From: Natronorubrum halalkaliphilum
GTDB taxonomy: Archaea > Halobacteriota > Halobacteria > Halobacteriales > Natrialbaceae
Assembly (NCBI RefSeq): GCF_009834785.1
Contig: NZ_WUYX01000037.1
Span: 1 to 43,871, forward strand
Direction: 5' to 3'
DNA length: 43,871 nt
Both the position numbers and the translations under genes were made by a program. Positions 28,150 through 38,171 of the stretch are shown one piece after another; position 1 is the stretch's first letter; the number at the start of each line of letters is the position of its first letter. The notes under the pieces were generated by a model. It did not search any database. It was not told where the DNA came from and worked only from the letters and a program-made list of their open reading frames with translations.

Positions 28150-29088
28150 ATGGACTGGGAGGCACCCGTTGACGCGTGGTACGTCTATCTGGCAGTTTCG
28201 CTCGTAAGCGTCGCGATCGCTGGTGTTGTCCTCGGCTTTCCGACGGGAGCCCCGCCGGATGCGAATCGGGCGGCGAACACGATCGAACCGGTTGCCGGAA
28301 GCACCACCGAAGCCAGCGCAACGTGGGAGTACGACGCCGAAACGATCGTCATCGACGGGACGACCCTCGAGTTAGCAAACGAGCACGGAATCAGTCACGC
28401 CAGCCTGAATTATGGTGTCGTCGTTCCCGTCAACGATTCTAAACGGTTGGCAAACATAACTCGCGGTGCCGAGTTCGAAGCCGAATACGGCGACGAACTG
28501 GCGGACGAGGATACACACGCAGTCGAAACGTTTCTTTCGGAGGTCACAGACCAATACGAGAAAAACAGCGATACGAGGCTGACCGCAAGCGACGAACTAG
28601 TTGCTCGCCAGGTCAGTGTCGACCCGGCGGACGACAACATCAGGTCGTTCGTCGAGGTCGTCAACTTCGAGTCGATTCCGTCTGATTGGAAACTCGGCGG
28701 TTATGTTATGACCGGTATTGGAACCGTGCAGGGATCGTACAGCGGGATCGATGGGAACAGCATCGAAATGTCCGTCGATGGTGACTACGCCGGCCCGAGT
28801 GGTTCTTCCATCAGCGACGCTGTTACCGATCAGACCTTTCATAGCGGCGAAGGCGAATTTTCGGTAGATATCGAATCATCGGATACCTTCGACCGACCGG
28901 GCGACTCTCCCGTGGACGTGACGATCGAGTTCGACAACGGTGGAACGTGCGTGGAGTCACTCGATCCCGGTTCTGAAGGGCGGTGTACGAACGAGATATC
29001 GCGCTCGGCCGACTTCGATGCTAGCGCACCGTTCGTCGAACACAAACGTACTACTGAGATGTACCATGTCACACTTGTCGTCGTCTAG
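28150..29088 (+). CDS. Secreted/membrane-anchored haloarchaeal protein (DUF7283-like)
   Basis: The 312-residue protein has one membrane segment at about 10-32 (WYVYLAVSLVSVAIAGVVLGFPTG) after a short cytoplasmic start, and the remainder is an acidic, Ser/Asp-rich extracellular domain. It contains two cysteines (GTCVES and GRCTNE) close together that could form a disulfide. I relate it from memory to DUF7283, a haloarchaeal family found with Tad/type IV pilus-like clusters; the biochemical function is unknown. It is the first of three coupled genes, its end overlapping the next gene by 23 bases. Confidence 0.7.
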   Translation: MDWEAPVDAWYVYLAVSLVSVAIAGVVLGFPTGAPPDANRAANTIEPVAGSTTEASATWEYDAETIVIDGTTLELANEHGISHASLNYGVVVPVNDSKRLANITRGAEFEAEYGDELADEDTHAVETFLSEVTDQYEKNSDTRLTASDELVARQVSVDPADDNIRSFVEVVNFESIPSDWKLGGYVMTGIGTVQGSYSGIDGNSIEMSVDGDYAGPSGSSISDAVTDQTFHSGEGEFSVDIESSDTFDRPGDSPVDVTIEFDNGGTCVESLDPGSEGRCTNEISRSADFDASAPFVEHKRTTEMYHVTLVVV

Positions 29089-30763: not shown

Positions 30764-31684
30764 TCAGGATTCCGTGGCGACCAATTCACGAACCCGTTCG
30801 ACCGCAGCCTCGGCGTCGGTCCCGAAGACGTAGGTCGCGGGTTCGATCCCGAACGCACCGCGGTGATAGGCGACGTGTGGAACGCCGCCGTGTGCCGTGA
30901 ACCTCGAGCGAAGGTGTGCCCCGCGGTCTTCGTAGTCGGCGTCGAACTCGAGGGTCGCCAACCCACGCTCCTGAGCGGCCTCGAGCAGTCGATCGTCCGT
31001 CGCGATATTCAGCGCGCCGCGAATATTAGGATCGACGTCGGAGGCGGCAAGGAGTGCGGTCGAAACGTGTTTGGAGGCCCCGAACTCGGGATTTGCGGGG
31101 ATCTCGAGGCGGCCGTTCAGTTCGTAGATTCGGCCCGGAATCGCGGCGACGTCGGTTTCATCGTCGGGGTCGGGAAGACACATTCCGATATTGGTGCCGA
31201 CGTTAGGGACGTAGCCGCTAATTTCGGGCACCGTGGCGAGGGTTCGTGCGGCCGTCCGCACGTCGGCGAGTACGTCTCGTTCGGCCCGTACGTCGGGATC
31301 GAGACCGCGGACACAGAGGTCACAGCCGAGTCCCTGAAGGGCGGGCATCTCCTCCTCGTGGAGTTCGCAGATCGGCCCGCGGTCCTCGAGGCTTCGAATC
31401 AGCGAGAGGAGTTCGGCCAACGCGTCGTAGCCGTCCATCTCGCCGCTCGAGAGACCGTCGGCGATGCGATCGACGGTGGCAACGGTTTCGGGGTGATTAC
31501 GAAAGCGGTCGTCGCCGCCGCTCTCGCCGCCCACGTACTTGCTGACGGCGGCCTGGGTCACGCCGAGGTTGGCTGCGATCTCCTGTTGGGTCATGCCGCG
31601 ATCGGCGAGTCGGGTCGCGAGCATGGCCCGCACCGTCGGGAGAAACCGGTCGACAACGAGTTCGCTCGGCAGGACGAGAGACAT
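30764..31684 (-). CDS. thiR: ThiR-type regulator: HTH plus ThiN (thiamine-phosphate synthase-like) domain
   Basis: The 306-residue protein has an N-terminal Cro/XRE-like helix-turn-helix (LADRGMTQQEIAANLGVTQAAVSKYVGG, about 25-52). Its C-terminal half matches the ThiN domain (VPEISGYVPNVGTNIGMCLPDPDDETDVAAIPGRI, then ANPEFGASKHVSTALLAASDVDPNIRGALNIATDD). This HTH-ThiN architecture is that of ThiR, the archaeal repressor that senses thiamine phosphate and controls thiamine synthesis and uptake genes. Start ATG at 31684 is the natural one. It lies 79 bases downstream of phnE on the same strand, so it may be in the transporter's operon. Confidence 0.85.
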   Translation of the reverse strand: MSLVLPSELVVDRFLPTVRAMLATRLADRGMTQQEIAANLGVTQAAVSKYVGGESGGDDRFRNHPETVATVDRIADGLSSGEMDGYDALAELLSLIRSLEDRGPICELHEEEMPALQGLGCDLCVRGLDPDVRAERDVLADVRTAARTLATVPEISGYVPNVGTNIGMCLPDPDDETDVAAIPGRIYELNGRLEIPANPEFGASKHVSTALLAASDVDPNIRGALNIATDDRLLEAAQERGLATLEFDADYEDRGAHLRSRFTAHGGVPHVAYHRGAFGIEPATYVFGTDAEAAVERVRELVATES

Positions 31685-31763
31685 ACGAGCGCGTAGCGCG
31701 GACACCGGCTTAAATCCGGCTACCGCGCTCGAACGAGCGCGCTCGAGTGTCCTGCGGTCCGGC

Positions 31764-32642
31764 TCAGCTCCGTGCGGCCCGCCGCTCGGCGTCGAGCAGG
31801 CTTCGGAGTCGATTCGCCACGAATTCGACGCTCACCACGAGGACGAGGATTGCGACGATCGCCGCCATGACCCGTGTATAGTTTCTGGCTCTGAAAGCCA
31901 TGATCAGCGGATAGCCGATGCCGCCCGCGCCGACGATGCCGAGCACCGAGCTCTTGCGGGCGTTGATCTCGAGGTAGAACAGCGTCCACGCGACGTACGC
32001 CGTCGATACTTGCGGAATTCGAGCGGCCGACGTCGTCGCCAGGAGTCCGGCGCCGCTCGAGACGACGGCGTCGACCGGCGCGCGGTCGATCTCTTCCATC
32101 TCGTCGGCGAACAATCGTCCGAGGTCGCCGACGGTCCCCATCGCGATAGCGAGCGCACCGGCGACCGGCCCGAGTCCCGCGAGGATCACGAACAGGAGCG
32201 CGTAGACCATGCTCGGCACGGCCCGAACGCCGCCCAGAAACAGCCGCAGGGGAGTGTAAACGATTCGCGGCGTTACGTTGCTCGCGGCGAGAACGCCGAG
32301 ACAGAACGCGAGCGGGAGCCCGATCGCCGTACCGACGCCCGCGATGGCCAGCGTCTCGAGGGTCGCCGACGCCAGCGTCGAGCCGTCCGCCTGCAACTGC
32401 GCCCAGAGCTGTCCGGGCGCGAGCATCTCCTCGAGCAACACGTCCCGCAGGTTTCCGCGGTGGGCGTAGAGGTACGCGAGGTCGAAACCGAGCCATCGCG
32501 CGGCCGCGAACACGAGAGCGACCAGCGCGACGACCGCGCCGGTCCGAACGACGAATCGGCGTCGCCAGCGGGCCTGAACCTGGTCGAACTCGTCGTCGAC
32601 GGCGATTCCGTCTTCGGAGTGACGCCGCTCACGCCGGGACAT
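31764..32642 (-). CDS. phnE: Phosphonate-family ABC transporter permease
   Basis: The 292-residue protein is a PhnE-like ABC transporter permease. Membrane segments occur at about 32-50, 90-120, 130-160 and 240-270, and the permease motif EINARKSSVLGIVGAGGIGYPL (about 220-240) is characteristic of phosphonate-type permeases. It overlaps phnC by 14 bases. Transport of a phosphonate, phosphite or some other oxyanion is inferred from the family; the presence of a ThiR-type regulator next door leaves open a thiamine-related substrate. Confidence 0.88.
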   Translation of the reverse strand: MSRRERRHSEDGIAVDDEFDQVQARWRRRFVVRTGAVVALVALVFAAARWLGFDLAYLYAHRGNLRDVLLEEMLAPGQLWAQLQADGSTLASATLETLAIAGVGTAIGLPLAFCLGVLAASNVTPRIVYTPLRLFLGGVRAVPSMVYALLFVILAGLGPVAGALAIAMGTVGDLGRLFADEMEEIDRAPVDAVVSSGAGLLATTSAARIPQVSTAYVAWTLFYLEINARKSSVLGIVGAGGIGYPLIMAFRARNYTRVMAAIVAILVLVVSVEFVANRLRSLLDAERRAARS

Positions 32643-33336
32643 TGTACACCTCCCCGATGCGTTCCGGGTCGACGTCGGCCGCGGCGGCGTCGAGCGTCAG
32701 CCGCCCGTCGGCGAGGCCCAGATATCGATCGGCGATCTCGCCGGCGAGTCGCGGTTGGTGGAGACTGACGAGGCCGACGAGGTCCTCCCGACGGACCACC
32801 GATGCCAGCCGCTCGAGAACGGCGCGAGCGGTCACCGGATCGAGCGACGCAACCGGCTCGTCAGCGAGGAGCACTCGCGGCTCCTGGTGGAGCGCGCGAG
32901 CGATGCCGACGCGCTGACGCTCGCCGCCGGAGAGGTCGCCGACGCGTTGCTGTGCGCAGCCGGCCAGATCGACCGCGTGGAGTCGTTCGATCGCGGCTCG
33001 TTTCTCCGCCGCCGTATGCCACCCGAGAAGCTCGCGCCAGGCCGACTCACGGGCGAGGCCACCATCGAGGACGTTCTCGAGGGCCGATTTACCGTCGAGC
33101 AGGGCTCCCTCCTGAAAGATCAACGCGGCGTCGGTCCGGCCGAGGGGCTCGCCCTCGAGTCGGATCGTTCCCGAATCGGGCCGTTCCAACCCGTTTAGAC
33201 ACCGCAGCAGGGTCGTTTTTCCGGAACCGGAGCGACCGACCAGGACTGCCATTGAACCGGGTTCGAGGTCGAACGAGATATCGGCTACCGCGTCGACAGC
33301 GCCGTAGCGCTTCTCGAGGCCGGTGACGGAGAGCAT
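32629..33336 (-). CDS. phnC: Phosphonate-family ABC transporter ATPase
   Basis: The 235-residue protein is the ATP-binding subunit. Walker A is GRSGSGKTTLLR at about 34-45, the signature LSGGERQRVGIARAL is at about 134-148, and Walker B is RVLLADEPVASLDP. It is PhnC-like in length and order. It starts six bases after phnD and overlaps phnE, making one transport operon phnD-phnC-phnE. Confidence 0.92.
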   Translation of the reverse strand: MLSVTGLEKRYGAVDAVADISFDLEPGSMAVLVGRSGSGKTTLLRCLNGLERPDSGTIRLEGEPLGRTDAALIFQEGALLDGKSALENVLDGGLARESAWRELLGWHTAAEKRAAIERLHAVDLAGCAQQRVGDLSGGERQRVGIARALHQEPRVLLADEPVASLDPVTARAVLERLASVVRREDLVGLVSLHQPRLAGEIADRYLGLADGRLTLDAAAADVDPERIGEVYNVPA

Positions 33337-33342
33337 GGCGGT

Positions 33343-34284
33343 TTATTCGTCGCTGGTGTCGTCTTCCTCGTCCTCCGCTTCGGCGTCGTCGAGTGTCTCG
33401 ATGTCGAGTCCCATCTGGTCGGCAATATCGCGAACGTGGTCGTACAGTTCGGGGTCGAACTCGCCGTACTCGTCGACTCGGTGGTCCTCGAGTGCCGTCT
33501 CGGGCGTCTCGATGAGCCGCGTTGCGAGCCGGTCGCGGACGTCCTCGGGCGTGTCCGGCTTCGCGACGATCACGTCGAACGGAATCGGATCGCTTTCCGC
33601 GATCTTGCTGATTTCGTCGTCGTCGGGATGCTGAAAATCACCGTACGCCGCGGCGTCGACGTGGCCTTCCTCGAGAACCCGGAGCGCGGCGTCGTGGCTC
33701 CCGGCCCAGTCGATATCGAAGTCGTCCGGTTCGGTCTCGATATCCCCCGCGTGCAGGCCCGCTTGCGAGAGCCTGTACCGGGGGAACATGCCGCCGCTGG
33801 CCGACATCGGGTCGACCATGGCAATGGTCTTCCCCTCGAGATCCTCGATCGACTCGATTTCGGTGTCGCTTCTGGTGGCGATGTAGGTGTGATAGGAATC
33901 CGAGCCGTGGGACCAGTTGATCGCGAGGGGGTGAACGTCGTCTTCTTGAGCGAGCACGAAGATGAACGGCGAGAGATTCGCCAGTTCTGTGTGTCCGTTG
34001 ACGACGCTCTCGACGACGCCGCTGTAGTCGGTGGTCGGCACTCCCTCGACGGTGTCGACCGCTTCGAACCCGTCTTCGATCCACTCGAACGTTCCCGCGT
34101 ACTGGTCCCGCAAATCTTCCGCGTCCTGGAACGGCGGCAACCCGAACTCGATATGTCCGTCCGCCCACGCCCCGACGGGGTGATCGCCTTCGTCGATGTC
34201 CGAGCCGGCGATGTCGTCGAGACAACCGGCAGCGCCGGCGGCAACGGTTCCGGCAAACGCGCTGAGATACGTTCTCCGATTCAT
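33343..34284 (-). CDS. phnD: Phosphonate-family ABC transporter substrate-binding lipoprotein
   Basis: The 313-residue protein is a PhnD-like solute-binding protein. The N-terminus MNRRTYLSAFAGTVAAGAAGC has a twin-arginine pair and a lipobox-like AAGC, so it is probably exported by Tat and anchored by lipid, as is usual in haloarchaea. The body contains the PhnD-type pocket segments GKTIAMVDPMSASGGMFPRYRL and GSHDAALRVLEEGHVDAAAYG. The C-terminal tail is strongly acidic. ATG at 34284 gives the signal at the very start. Substrate is uncertain. Confidence 0.88.
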   Translation of the reverse strand: MNRRTYLSAFAGTVAAGAAGCLDDIAGSDIDEGDHPVGAWADGHIEFGLPPFQDAEDLRDQYAGTFEWIEDGFEAVDTVEGVPTTDYSGVVESVVNGHTELANLSPFIFVLAQEDDVHPLAINWSHGSDSYHTYIATRSDTEIESIEDLEGKTIAMVDPMSASGGMFPRYRLSQAGLHAGDIETEPDDFDIDWAGSHDAALRVLEEGHVDAAAYGDFQHPDDDEISKIAESDPIPFDVIVAKPDTPEDVRDRLATRLIETPETALEDHRVDEYGEFDPELYDHVRDIADQMGLDIETLDDAEAEDEEDDTSDE

Positions 34285-34409
34285 AGCTACGATGGGGATC
34301 ACCGAGGGTTAACACTCACGAATAGGTCTGAGTGCAGTCAGAATGCTGTCACGACCGACGGCGGGGCCACCCGGGTCAGTTGCGGGGGCCGTCGCTTCCG
34401 AAAGATAGG

Positions 34410-34439: not shown

Positions 34440-35426
34440 ATGGCAGTCTCGAGCGCTCCCGGCAAGGTGTATCTGTTCGGGGAGCACGCGGTGGTCTACG
34501 GCGAACCCGCCGTTCCGTGTGCCATCGAGGTGCGGGCACGGGTCGGCGTCGAGCAACGATCGGACAACAAACTCCGGATTCACTCCGAAGACCTGAGCCT
34601 GGACGGCTTTACGGTCGAGTACGCGGGGTCGGCGGACGAGCGTCCCGACGTGGACGTCTCCGAGTCCCTGCTGACCGCGGCGATGGGGTACGTCGACGGC
34701 GCGATCGAACAGGTCCGGGACGTGACCGGCGACGACGACGTCGGATTCGACGTGACCATCGAGAGCGACATTCCGCTGGGTGCGGGCCTGGGGTCGTCCG
34801 CGGCGGTCGCCGTCGCCGCTATCGACGCCGGAACGCGCGAACTCGGCACGACGCTCGAGATCGACGAACTCGCCGAGCGTGCCTACCAGACCGAGTACGA
34901 CGTCCAGGGGGGCCAGGCCTCCCGGGCGGACACGTTCTGTTCGGCCACGGGCGGGGCCGTCCGGGTCGAAGGCGATGACTGTCGGTCCCTCGAGGCGCCC
35001 GATCTCCCCATCGTAATCGGGTTCGACGGCGGCGCCGGCGACACTGGCGAACTCGTCGCGGGCGTCCGAGGCCTCCGCGAGGAGTACGAGTTCGCGGCCG
35101 ACACGGTCGAGTCGATCGGCGACATCGTCCGGAACGGCGAGCAGGCGCTCGCCGAGGGCAATATCGAAGAACTCGGCCGCCTGATGAACTTCAATCACGG
35201 GCTGCTCTCGGCGCTTGGAGTCTCCTCGAGATCGCTCGATTCGATGGTCTGGGCGGCCCGCGACGCCGGCGCTAACGGCGCGAAGCTGACGGGTGCGGGC
35301 GGCGGCGGCTGTATCGTCGCCCTCGACGAAAGCGACGAGGCCGAGACGGCGCTGTCGTACACGCCCGGCTGTAAGGACACCTTCCGCGCCGAACTCGCGG
35401 ATACGGGGGTGAGGCGAGTCGAATGA
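34440..35426 (+). CDS. mvk: Mevalonate kinase
   Basis: The 328-residue GHMP kinase phosphorylates mevalonate in the pathway to isoprenoid lipids. It starts with SSAPGKVYLFGEHAVVYGEPAVPCAIE, has the ATP-binding loop DIPLGAGLGSSAAVAVA at about 110-126, and the C-terminal motif NGAKLTGAGGGGCIVAL at about 278-294. Length is normal. It overlaps ipk by four bases (ATGA). In archaea the two enzymes belong to the modified mevalonate pathways. Confidence 0.97.
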   Translation: MAVSSAPGKVYLFGEHAVVYGEPAVPCAIEVRARVGVEQRSDNKLRIHSEDLSLDGFTVEYAGSADERPDVDVSESLLTAAMGYVDGAIEQVRDVTGDDDVGFDVTIESDIPLGAGLGSSAAVAVAAIDAGTRELGTTLEIDELAERAYQTEYDVQGGQASRADTFCSATGGAVRVEGDDCRSLEAPDLPIVIGFDGGAGDTGELVAGVRGLREEYEFAADTVESIGDIVRNGEQALAEGNIEELGRLMNFNHGLLSALGVSSRSLDSMVWAARDAGANGAKLTGAGGGGCIVALDESDEAETALSYTPGCKDTFRAELADTGVRRVE

Positions 35427-36193
35427 TCGTCCTGAAACTCGGCGGGAGCGTTATCACGGAGAAAGACCGTGCGGAAACGCTCGACGGCGAGGCGCTCGGG
35501 CGAGCCGCCGACGCGGTCGCAGCGACGCTCGAGGCGGCCGGACAGGGGCCGGGCGGGAGCGAAGACGAAACCGCGGACCTCGTGATCGTCCACGGCGGCG
35601 GGAGTTTTGGCCATCACAACGCCAGCGAACACGGCGTGACGACGACCGACGGAACGCACGACGCCGCCGCGGCACTCGAGATTCACGGGGCGATGAAGAC
35701 ACTGAACCAGTTCGTCCTGACGCGGCTCCTCGAGCGGGACGTGCAGGCGGTCCCTGTTCATCCGTTTTCGGCGGGCCACCGCGACGAGACGGCCGCCCTC
35801 GAGTTCCCGACCGGGCAGGTCGAGACGCTACTCGCGGAGGGGTTCGTGCCGGTCCTCCACGGCGATATGATCGCTCACGCCGGCTCGGGTGCGACCGTCG
35901 TCAGCGGCGACGAACTGGTCGTCGAACTGGCTCGCGACCTCGAGGCCGACCGGATCGGGCTCTGTTCGACGGTTCCGGGCGTCCTGGACGACGCGGACGA
36001 CGTGATCGATCGGATTTCGAAGTACAAGGACGTCGAATCGGTGCTGGGTGCCAGCGACGCGACCGACGTAACCGGTGGCATGGCCGCGAAAGTCCGGGCT
36101 TTGCTCGAACTCGAGGCCGAGGCGTCTATCTTCGGGCTCGAGGCGCTGGATTCGTTCCTTCGGGGTGAGCCGGCGGGGACGACGATCGAGTAG
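35423..36193 (+). CDS. ipk: Isopentenyl phosphate kinase
   Basis: The 256-residue protein is an amino-acid-kinase-fold enzyme that makes isopentenyl diphosphate from isopentenyl phosphate, the last step of the archaeal modified mevalonate pathway. Signatures are KLGGSVITEKD at the start, VIVHGGGSFGHHNASEHG with the catalytic His (about 57-74), VPVLHGDMIAH and TDVTGGMAAKVRALLEL. It is translationally coupled to mvk. The downstream genes rnj/idsA often seen in haloarchaea are not here; instead a convergent ThDP enzyme follows. Confidence 0.96.
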   Translation: MIVLKLGGSVITEKDRAETLDGEALGRAADAVAATLEAAGQGPGGSEDETADLVIVHGGGSFGHHNASEHGVTTTDGTHDAAAALEIHGAMKTLNQFVLTRLLERDVQAVPVHPFSAGHRDETAALEFPTGQVETLLAEGFVPVLHGDMIAHAGSGATVVSGDELVVELARDLEADRIGLCSTVPGVLDDADDVIDRISKYKDVESVLGASDATDVTGGMAAKVRALLELEAEASIFGLEALDSFLRGEPAGTTIE

Positions 36194-36368: not shown

Positions 36369-38060
36369 TCAGTCGTGTACCAACACGTCGAGCACGTTGG
36401 TCCCGTCGTTGGCCAGTGCCTCCTCGAGTGCGCCTTCGATCTCGTCCGGCGTTGCTACCCGTTCGGCGCGTGCGCCGTGGCTCTGGGCGTTTGTGACGAG
36501 GTCGACGGCCGGATCGAAGTCCATCCCGGCGAACTCGTAGTCGGCTTCGTCGCCGCCCATCAGTTTGAGCGTGTTATCCTTCAGGATGCGGTAGTTGCGG
36601 TTGTCCGAGATAACGACCGTGAGGTCGACGTCGTGCCGGGCCGCGCTGTAGATCGAGTGGGGGTAGTAGAGGTAGGAACCGTCGCCGATGAAACCGACGA
36701 CATCGCGGGGATCGTCCCGCTGGCCCTCGGCGACGGCGGCACCGACCGACGCGGGGAGGCCGTAGCCGAGGCCGCCGCCCTTGTTCGAAATGTACTGTTC
36801 GGGCGCGAGGTCCCAGCGGGTCAGCATGGCGTACTTCGAGGTCACACCCTCGTCGACGATGTACGCGTCACCGGCGACGGCCTCCATCGCGTCGACGAGT
36901 TCGGCCTTCGAGGACCGGGGGTCATCCTCGGCGTCGCCCTCGCCCATGCCGGCCATCTGCGCCTCGACCATCTCCTTGATCGCGCCGACGTTCTCGAGTC
37001 GCTCTTCGACGGTCTCCGCGGAGAGGCGACCCTGTAGTCGTTCGATGAGGTCCTGCATGACCAGCCCCGGATCGCCGACGATGGCCGCGTCAGCGGGCTG
37101 GTTCTTGCCGATCTGCCAGTCGTCGTCGCTGATGTGGATACACGCGGTGTCCGGATCGACCAGCGCCTCCTCGTGGCGGGTCAGCGTCGTGTTGGTCGAG
37201 CAGCCGACGAACGCGACCGTATCGGTGTCCATCAGCATCGATGCGAGGGTTTCGTCCGGTGGGATGTAGGAAACCCACTGGTCGTGGTCGGTCGGGAAGT
37301 TAACCTCGCAGGAGAGGATTTCGCCGTGGATCCGGGCGCCGGTGGTCTCGGCGAGTTCGACCGCCGCCGCGACGGCGTCCGCACCCGAGCGGGCGACGTG
37401 GTCTCCCAGGACAATCACCGGACTCTCGGCCTCGGCGAGCAGGTCAGCAGCGTGCTCGAGCTGCGCGGGATCGCCGCTGCCGGCGTTCGGAATCGGACCG
37501 AGGCGTTCGGGCTCGGCGTCGGTCTCCTCGAGCATGACGTCCAGGGGCAGCCCGAGGAAGACGGGACCCGTCGGCGGCGTCATCGCGACGCGGAACGCCC
37601 GCCGGAGCATCGTCGGGAGCGCGGAGACGTCGAGCACCTCGTCGGACCACTTGCAGAACTGTTCGGTCATCTCGACAAGATCGCCCGACAGAATGGGTTC
37701 TTCGTGACGGAAGTCCGTGCTGTGGTTGCCCGCGGTGACGACCAGCGGCGCGCCGGCGATCTTGGCGGCGTAGAGGTTCCCCAGCCCGTGGGCCAGCCCT
37801 GGAGCGATGTGGAGATTCGCGACGCCGACCGGCGTGATCGAGTCGTCGTGATGGGAGTGATAACGCCGGGTCTGGGCGTATCCCGAGGCCATCCCGACCG
37901 CGATGTCCTCGTGCAGTCCCAGCACGTAGTCCAGGTCACTCTGGCTGATCGCCTCCATGATCGGCAGCTCCGTCGTGCCCGGATTCCCGAAGACGTAGTC
38001 GACGCCGTAGGACTCGAGCGCGTCGGTGAAGAGATCGGCACCGGTGTAATCGTCTGCCAT
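36369..38060 (-). CDS. ThDP-dependent decarboxylase-like enzyme (benzoylformate decarboxylase/acetolactate synthase family)
   Basis: The 563-residue protein has the three-domain layout of thiamine-diphosphate enzymes. The N-terminal FGNPGTTELPIMEAI contains the conserved Glu that activates ThDP, and VANLHIAPGLAHGLGNL contains a His found in benzoylformate decarboxylases. A central domain follows (VIVLGDHVARSG). The C-terminal ThDP-binding motif is GDGSYLYY through DNRNYRIL (about 460-495). A short His-rich insertion (YHSHHDD) is seen at about 65-71. The sequence is nearer to benzoylformate decarboxylase-like proteins than to true IlvB; the substrate is unknown. ATG at 38060 is chosen. It is divergent from the beta-propeller gene. 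Confidence 0.85.
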   Translation of the reverse strand: MADDYTGADLFTDALESYGVDYVFGNPGTTELPIMEAISQSDLDYVLGLHEDIAVGMASGYAQTRRYHSHHDDSITPVGVANLHIAPGLAHGLGNLYAAKIAGAPLVVTAGNHSTDFRHEEPILSGDLVEMTEQFCKWSDEVLDVSALPTMLRRAFRVAMTPPTGPVFLGLPLDVMLEETDAEPERLGPIPNAGSGDPAQLEHAADLLAEAESPVIVLGDHVARSGADAVAAAVELAETTGARIHGEILSCEVNFPTDHDQWVSYIPPDETLASMLMDTDTVAFVGCSTNTTLTRHEEALVDPDTACIHISDDDWQIGKNQPADAAIVGDPGLVMQDLIERLQGRLSAETVEERLENVGAIKEMVEAQMAGMGEGDAEDDPRSSKAELVDAMEAVAGDAYIVDEGVTSKYAMLTRWDLAPEQYISNKGGGLGYGLPASVGAAVAEGQRDDPRDVVGFIGDGSYLYYPHSIYSAARHDVDLTVVISDNRNYRILKDNTLKLMGGDEADYEFAGMDFDPAVDLVTNAQSHGARAERVATPDEIEGALEEALANDGTNVLDVLVHD

Positions 38061-38171
38061 GAAACATCGTGGCTCGTGCTGGCACATGAATTTGTGTGTT
38101 CCAGCGACTCCTCCCCGACGCGTTTTCCGGTTCTCGAGGGCTTAGGAAACCCGGGGGCGCATGGCACACGT

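Follow-up and report, generated by a model that had tools for sequence, protein, structure and literature searches.

Among the binding proteins closest to the one considered here, Te PtxB has Y55, Y100, S130, T131, S132 and H160 as its phosphate-head residues, and Asp205 of E. coli PhnD binds the amine of 2-aminoethylphosphonate (pocket description in PMC5700983). Binding proteins of the PhnT family can also hold larger organic phosphates, as a passage on GpxB in PMC12718374 indicates, and a passage of PMC12029414 names ThiBPQ as a thiamine importer of haloarchaea. We analysed a phnDCE transporter operon and the thiR-type regulator gene beside it (positions 30,764 to 34,284) in Natronorubrum halalkaliphilum, in a window made up of a whole stretch of 43,871 nucleotides of contig NZ_WUYX01000037.1. 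Taken together, our results lean towards phnDCE being linked to ThiR and importing a thiamine-related compound, which is probably phosphorylated.

The four genes are on the minus strand, and the coordinates of the open reading frames (ORFs) and the Pfam and NCBIfam families bore out the order read in the initial annotation, in which phnD, phnC, phnE and then thiR follow in one direction with 79 bases between the phnE stop and the thiR ATG. The first gene of the transporter operon encodes a PhnD-like substrate-binding lipoprotein (33343..34284; ORF 33343-34302, with a likely ATG at 34284 and a protein start MNRRTYL), in which a twin arginine and an AGC lipobox were recognised by eye. It is separated by 6 bases from the gene of a PhnC-like ATPase (32629..33336), which overlaps by 14 bases that of a PhnE-like permease (31764..32642). 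The regulator, called ThiR-A here, is encoded at 30764..31684 (ORF 30764-31705, likely ATG at 31684). The divergent neighbour upstream of phnD is a mevalonate kinase (MVK) gene (34440..35426, plus strand). The genome itself (G000; 4.56 Mb in 72 contigs) is from the family Natrialbaceae, with G116 as its congener.

The results of our Pfam searches showed that the three transporter proteins scored above the cut-offs for BPD_transp_1 (PhnE, 38.6 vs 26.4), ABC_tran (PhnC, 108.2 vs 25) and Phosphonate-bd, PF12974 (PhnD, 171.3 vs 27). In NCBIfam, PhnE was over the cut-off of TIGR01097 (241.6 vs 216.7) and PhnC had TIGR02315 as its best match, below the cut-off (220.3 vs 266.1), while PhnD was far under the PhnD equivalog cut-off (98.6 vs 261.1) and barely passed the broad phosphate/phosphite/phosphonate model (112.7 vs 112.05). 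No ThiB model was among the six NCBIfam matches of PhnD, for which Pfam gave PF12974 only; a search of the same genome for OpuAC gave no match and is not relevant here. The AlphaFold2 model of PhnD (predicted local distance difference test, pLDDT, of 85) had PtxB (Z 27.5), ArrX, HtxB, GpxB (Z 24.6) and PhnD as its nearest solved folds. With a PF12974 binding protein, a PhnC-type ATPase, a PhnE-type permease and a PtxB/PhnD fold, phnDCE is a PhnT-family ATP-binding cassette (ABC) importer. The regulator has an N-terminal helix-turn-helix (HTH) and a C-terminal ThiN domain, and this fusion is the ThiR architecture. Its ThiN score was 165.3 bits (cut-off 25) and its HTH_3 score was 22.9, just under the cut-off of 23, that of the ThiR orthologue at locus L043 being 29. 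On our reading of the alignment with the ThiN domain of MJ0236, ThiR-A has diverged in the stretch EEPPNVSTMEWG and is shorter there by five residues.

The window PhnD is a member of a separate haloarchaeal clade of about 60-84% identity, the commoner haloarchaeal PhnD paralogues being 29-40% identical to it. A search of 292 Halobacteria genomes (matches with E up to 1e-20) gave orthologues at 60-84% in 16 genomes, in 17 copies, while 76 others matched at 29-40% only. A PhnC search across 391 genomes, which missed G231 at its cut-off, added five genomes to give 21 in total, and with three named contigs (L052, L053 and L056) these made 24 orthologous loci. Of 52 genomes searched in the genus of G248, two had the clade and both were already in the set, and a scan of viral contigs for relatives confirmed none of 27 candidates.

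Comparison of the 24 loci showed that thiR adjoins the phn genes in 14, a count that takes in two loci where an additional ORF, or a gap as large as one, intervenes and one with a second phnD between, and the pairing is not an accident of one genome. The order MVK-phnDCE-thiR was found in 13 loci, all from Natrialbaceae (12 genomes and L052; G000, G116, G032, G262, G062, G105, G144, G104, G091, G307, G338 and G377 being the genomes), while in the fourteenth, L043 of G248, which is from another family, thiR is convergent with phnECD. A histidine kinase gene (HisKA, HATPase_c; L135:5505-6734) lies between phnE and thiR in G338, the gap at this place in G032 is about as large, and in G104 the intervening gene is the second phnD, inverted and 60% identical in its product to that of the window (L038:10607-11518). 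No ThiR match was found in the 16 kb fetched for each of the five paralogue loci inspected (L046-L050). The initial annotation had set against its proposal a transporter whose relatives are always found beside genes for C-P lyase or phosphite and never beside thiR; with thiR adjoining in 14 loci and the C-P lyase gene PhnJ in only two of the 21 genomes, the link survives.

The tree of PhnD, PhnC and PhnE for the 24 loci was made by a quick method that left 7 of 21 inner branches open. In this tree, the ThiR-adjacent Natrialbaceae were not one clade excluding the non-adjacent ones. G064/G347 and G141/G033/L053, for which no thiR neighbour was seen, nest inside the ThiR-adjacent group, so it seems that the transporter has sometimes moved on its own, without thiR. 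G248 and L056 were long branches, that of G248 lying outside the ThiR-adjacent group.

The gene order of G248 is an SSF symporter, TenA and TenA, then divergent ThiDN and ThiR, then convergent PhnE, PhnC and PhnD, and Pfam confirmed SSF, both TenA, ThiDN and ThiR. This layout is a thiamine-salvage cluster and, since it is arranged differently, it provides a second piece of evidence for the linkage. Four further loci (L140-L143), selected because ThiDN was near ThiR-A, hold SSF-TenA islands beside ThiR-A and ThiDN, with two TenA in three of them and one in L142, and no phnDCE. The N. halalkaliphilum genome encodes another ThiR, with 41% identity, some 3.4 kb past thi4 (L144), and ThiR-A looks like the paralogue that is tied to salvage genes in the genomes of G248 and L140-L143.

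A further permease stands beside the thiamine genes of these islands (L140:6520-7779, L141:9086-10345, L142:11793-13124 and L143:1477-2802); the three that were searched were all Nramp (PF01566, over the cut-off), and a small P-loop-like ORF next to the permease had no Pfam match in the two cases searched. By eye, the TenA-ThiR-ThiDN island is near-identical in L140 and L141, from genomes of different genera (G226 and G288), which suggests recent transfer.

We then compared promoters by means of a dyad that precedes thiC and thi4 and is placed between the TATA position and the ATG; in the thiC promoter of the N. halalkaliphilum genome it reads AACTAGGT-CATACA-ACCTAGTT. The motif was a symmetrised 22-base matrix of 34 sites (16 from thiC and 18 from thi4). 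It scored from 9.5 to 16.3 at all five tenA promoters outside the training set (L140 and L141 being near-copies), and its top match was just before tenA in the N. halalkaliphilum genome (16.7, 14 kb scanned) and in G033 (11.7, 12 kb scanned). The median was -16.1 for 200 general upstream regions, -14.4 for 29 MVK upstream regions and 1.7 for the phnD promoters of the clade, which were above those of the paralogues (p 9e-5, uncorrected for kinship and indicative only, as the promoter rank tests and a binomial test ignore the shared ancestry of the copies); shuffle values for single copies went from under 0.001 to 0.19. The match upstream of phnD was the top match of the whole locus in 8 of the 24 copies and ranked sixth or better in 17, and it ranked first in L039, L053 and L137, which have no adjacent thiR. 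In G248 the two top matches in 16 kb were the phnD promoter and the tenA/thiDN promoter, and a strong site of the thiamine type (14.6) precedes the second phnD of G104. A [GC]TGTTA core was present in 22 of the 24 copies at a constant distance, within 2 bases, from the phnD start (consensus TCGTGGGTGTTATCCCTGGGTGGTT). The corresponding upstream element of the window, TCGTGAGTGTTAACCCTCGGTG (34300..34321, minus strand), overlaps the TATA position and is a candidate ThiR operator. Autoregulation of thiR through the thiC/thi4 motif was not seen in 40 thiR promoters (median -17.9).

Pocket residues of PhnD were mapped by our own count through the PtxB alignments and the pocket description of PMC5700983, and 20 of the 25 PhnD copies entered the clade alignment. 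The phosphate-head residues of PhnD are Tyr87, Tyr131, Ser161, Ala162, Ser163 and His197, of which all but the residue at position 162 (Ala, Thr or Ser) were invariant in the 20 copies. The phosphite cap is lost, with Phe52 for Asp22 of PtxB (20/20) and Asp237 for Tyr208 (19/20). Set against characterised binders, as the initial annotation had proposed, the pocket has kept its head residues and is not of the phosphite type. Five other residues (Asn123, His126, Tyr214, Asp216 and His219) were present in 20/20 clade copies and absent or rare at the same columns of 15 paralogues, which makes one common ligand probable for the clade. The residues suggest that this ligand combines a polar-aromatic tail with a head that is either phosphate or phosphonate, and the pocket as predicted fits thiamine phosphate or hydroxymethylpyrimidine (HMP) phosphate and would also fit an amino-phosphonate.

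An importer of the thiamine regulon could instead carry an unphosphorylated pyrimidine or breakdown product, such as HMP or formylaminopyrimidine (FAMP), to feed TenA, the phosphate-head site then holding something else. A Thi4 match (2e-33 or better) was found in all 20 genomes examined, 16 of them of the clade, and a ThiC match in 178 of the 292 genomes; four clade genomes (G141, G033, G231 and G066) had no ThiC match and kept Thi4, so they would need pyrimidine from outside. This agrees with such a cargo, as do the TenA pair and ThiDN in the cluster of G248 and the presence of TenA in 17/21 clade genomes (30/40 in Natrialbaceae without PhnDCE). However, four of the 21 PhnDCE genomes had no TenA match, and the conservation of the phosphate head at five of six positions in every aligned copy speaks for a phosphorylated ligand, and we consider an unphosphorylated cargo improbable.

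Several observations weigh against a thiamine role of phnDCE, and the first of these concern the promoters. Candidate ThiR sites, which the initial annotation had looked to upstream of phnD, are prominent in the eight copies mentioned above but weak in the window, where the best match (34313..34334, minus strand) scored 3.3, rank 2 in 16 kb, and the candidate operator scored -3.4 in register. The top match of the window in these 16 kb (9.8) was at 29039-29060 and not at phnD; it falls in or near the start of a DUF7285 gene and is probably due to chance. Seven of the 24 phnD copies ranked only from 8 to 54, and the motif was weak at some thiamine genes (ThiE of L056, -14.5; ThiDN of L143, 0.1). 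The 15 paralogue phnD promoters (median -5.1, maximum 3.1) were above the general controls, so AT-richness plays a part in the signal.

The same holds for several results on gene content and gene order. PhnDCE as a replacement of lost ThiC was not supported, with ThiC in 12/16 clade genomes and in 166/276 others (p 0.30). Paired TenA was commoner with PhnDCE (12/21 vs 8/40), but within Natrialbaceae it was found in only 5/13 genomes with PhnDCE and in 8/40 without. The conservation of the thiR pair is partial, since thiR was absent from the fetched stretch in 9 of the 24 loci (G064, G141, G033, G099, G231, G066, G316, L053 and L056), while one more, that of G347, ends at a contig end. Eight of these nine loci had no nameable thiamine gene, mostly as judged by eye, and in the ninth, L056, ThiE and ThiM lie some 4.5 kb downstream. 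Among the 30 loci of the best thiR matches, MVK was directly beside thiR without phnDCE in 19. As phnDCE lies between these two genes in its carriers, the pairing in Natrialbaceae may go back to one ancestral insertion that was followed by losses and transfers. Moreover, thiR seems to have a promoter of its own, with a TATA-like element, ATTTAAG, at 31709..31715 (minus strand), 24 bases before its ATG, as a putative signal, and with similar elements, seen by eye, before thiR in relatives with and without phnDCE. This element and the histidine kinase gene of G338 weaken a simple phnDCE-thiR operon.

These results could also be obtained with an ordinary importer of small amino-phosphonates or organic phosphates for phosphorus nutrition that an ancestor of Natrialbaceae acquired between MVK and thiR by a chance insertion, with the case of G248 a coincidence. 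The PF12974 family and PtxB-like fold agree with such an importer, as do the thiR-MVK adjacency without a transporter and the nine loci in which thiR was missing, and by our mapping Asp237 takes the place of the E. coli PhnD residue, Asp205, that contacts the amine of 2-aminoethylphosphonate. The absence of PhnJ from 19 of the 21 clade genomes, that of N. halalkaliphilum included, argues less strongly than it seems against this explanation, PhnJ having been the only phosphonate pathway tested for and being equally rare in paralogue genomes (1 of the 30 searched out of 76), and C-P lyase absence as proof of another substrate was rejected as non-discriminating. What stands against the ordinary importer is the second, differently oriented ThiR link inside the salvage cluster of G248, together with the first-ranked thiamine-like promoter sites kept without an adjacent thiR in L039, L053 and L137. 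On this balance we regard it as unlikely, and judge that the lead of the initial annotation holds better than a chance neighbour would.

The thiamine-related ligand which the initial annotation suggested as possible for PhnD is favoured by the pairing, the G248 cluster, the operator-like promoters and the non-phosphite pocket; the ligand itself we infer from these. With phnDCE as a phosphonate-family ABC importer recruited for the supply of thiamine (vitamin B1), the ligand of the lipid-anchored PhnD would be a phosphorylated vitamer, whether thiamine phosphate, HMP phosphate or thiazole phosphate, with the phosphate in the ancestral phosphate-head site and the tail in an acidic and aromatic pocket, and PhnE and PhnC would import the vitamer bound by PhnD. 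ThiR reportedly responds to thiamine phosphate. When thiamine phosphates are plentiful, ThiR would then bind the site overlapping the TATA region of phnD and repress phnDCE, in the same way as at thiC, thi4 and tenA. More tentatively, and with somewhat less confidence than in the thiamine link as such, we propose that this importer clade switched its substrate class to a thiamine vitamer in phosphorylated form, with thiamine phosphate or HMP phosphate the likeliest, came under ThiR control and spread among haloarchaeal families, sometimes without the regulator but with the operator kept.

If this is true, genes of these haloarchaea that would receive a phosphonate transporter annotation in fact encode transporters of a vitamin, a new class of substrates is added to the PhnT family, and archaea take up phosphorylated B1 compounds directly as a nutrient. 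The substrate can be decided on a single protein, PhnD, whose binding can be assayed. Our literature search found no link between a phosphonate-type transporter and thiamine, the ThiR regulon papers (Rodionov 2017, Hwang 2017) being outside its reach, and part of the finding may already be known through the published ThiR regulon (Rodionov 2017).

On the divergent side of phnD, beyond MVK, the window encodes an isopentenyl phosphate kinase (35423..36193, plus strand) and, about 0.2 kb past it, a thiamine-diphosphate-dependent enzyme that is benzoylformate decarboxylase-like and under the equivalog cut-off (36369-38087). In the low-GC locus L138 of G316, where codon-model gene calling gave nothing and plain ORFs were used, genes of NAD synthesis lie upstream of phnDCE (L138:11668-15176), namely a nadC-type QRPTase, a FAD protein that is nadB-like by its order, and NadA.

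Comparison with the known systems showed likenesses and differences in each case. The window regulator resembles archaeal ThiR, as reported in Rodionov et al. 2017, in its HTH and ThiN domains and in the TenA and ThiDN neighbours found in related genomes. ThiBPQ is alike as an ABC import system for thiamine compounds, but the window binding protein is, by its Pfam and NCBIfam matches, not of the ThiB family. The window PhnD is like E. coli PhnD (PDB 3p7i) in its family, its head site and, by mapping, the Asp at the cap position, and unlike it in scoring below the equivalog cut-off and in the rarity of PhnJ in the genomes that carry it (absent in 19/21). The glycerol-phosphate-binding protein GpxB (PDB 9lf9) is also of the PhnT family and combines a phosphate head with an organic tail (rmsd, root-mean-square deviation, 2.9 over 252 aligned residues), but it is marine bacterial, only 16% identical, and has no thiamine context in the passages of PMC12718374 that describe it. 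PtxB (PDB 5lv1, 5jvb), the closest solved fold (rmsd 2.6 over 254 aligned residues), has the phosphate-head residues in common with the window PhnD, which differs from it by the replaced Tyr208/Asp22 cap, by an identity of only 24% and by its ThiR neighbour in 14 of the 24 loci.

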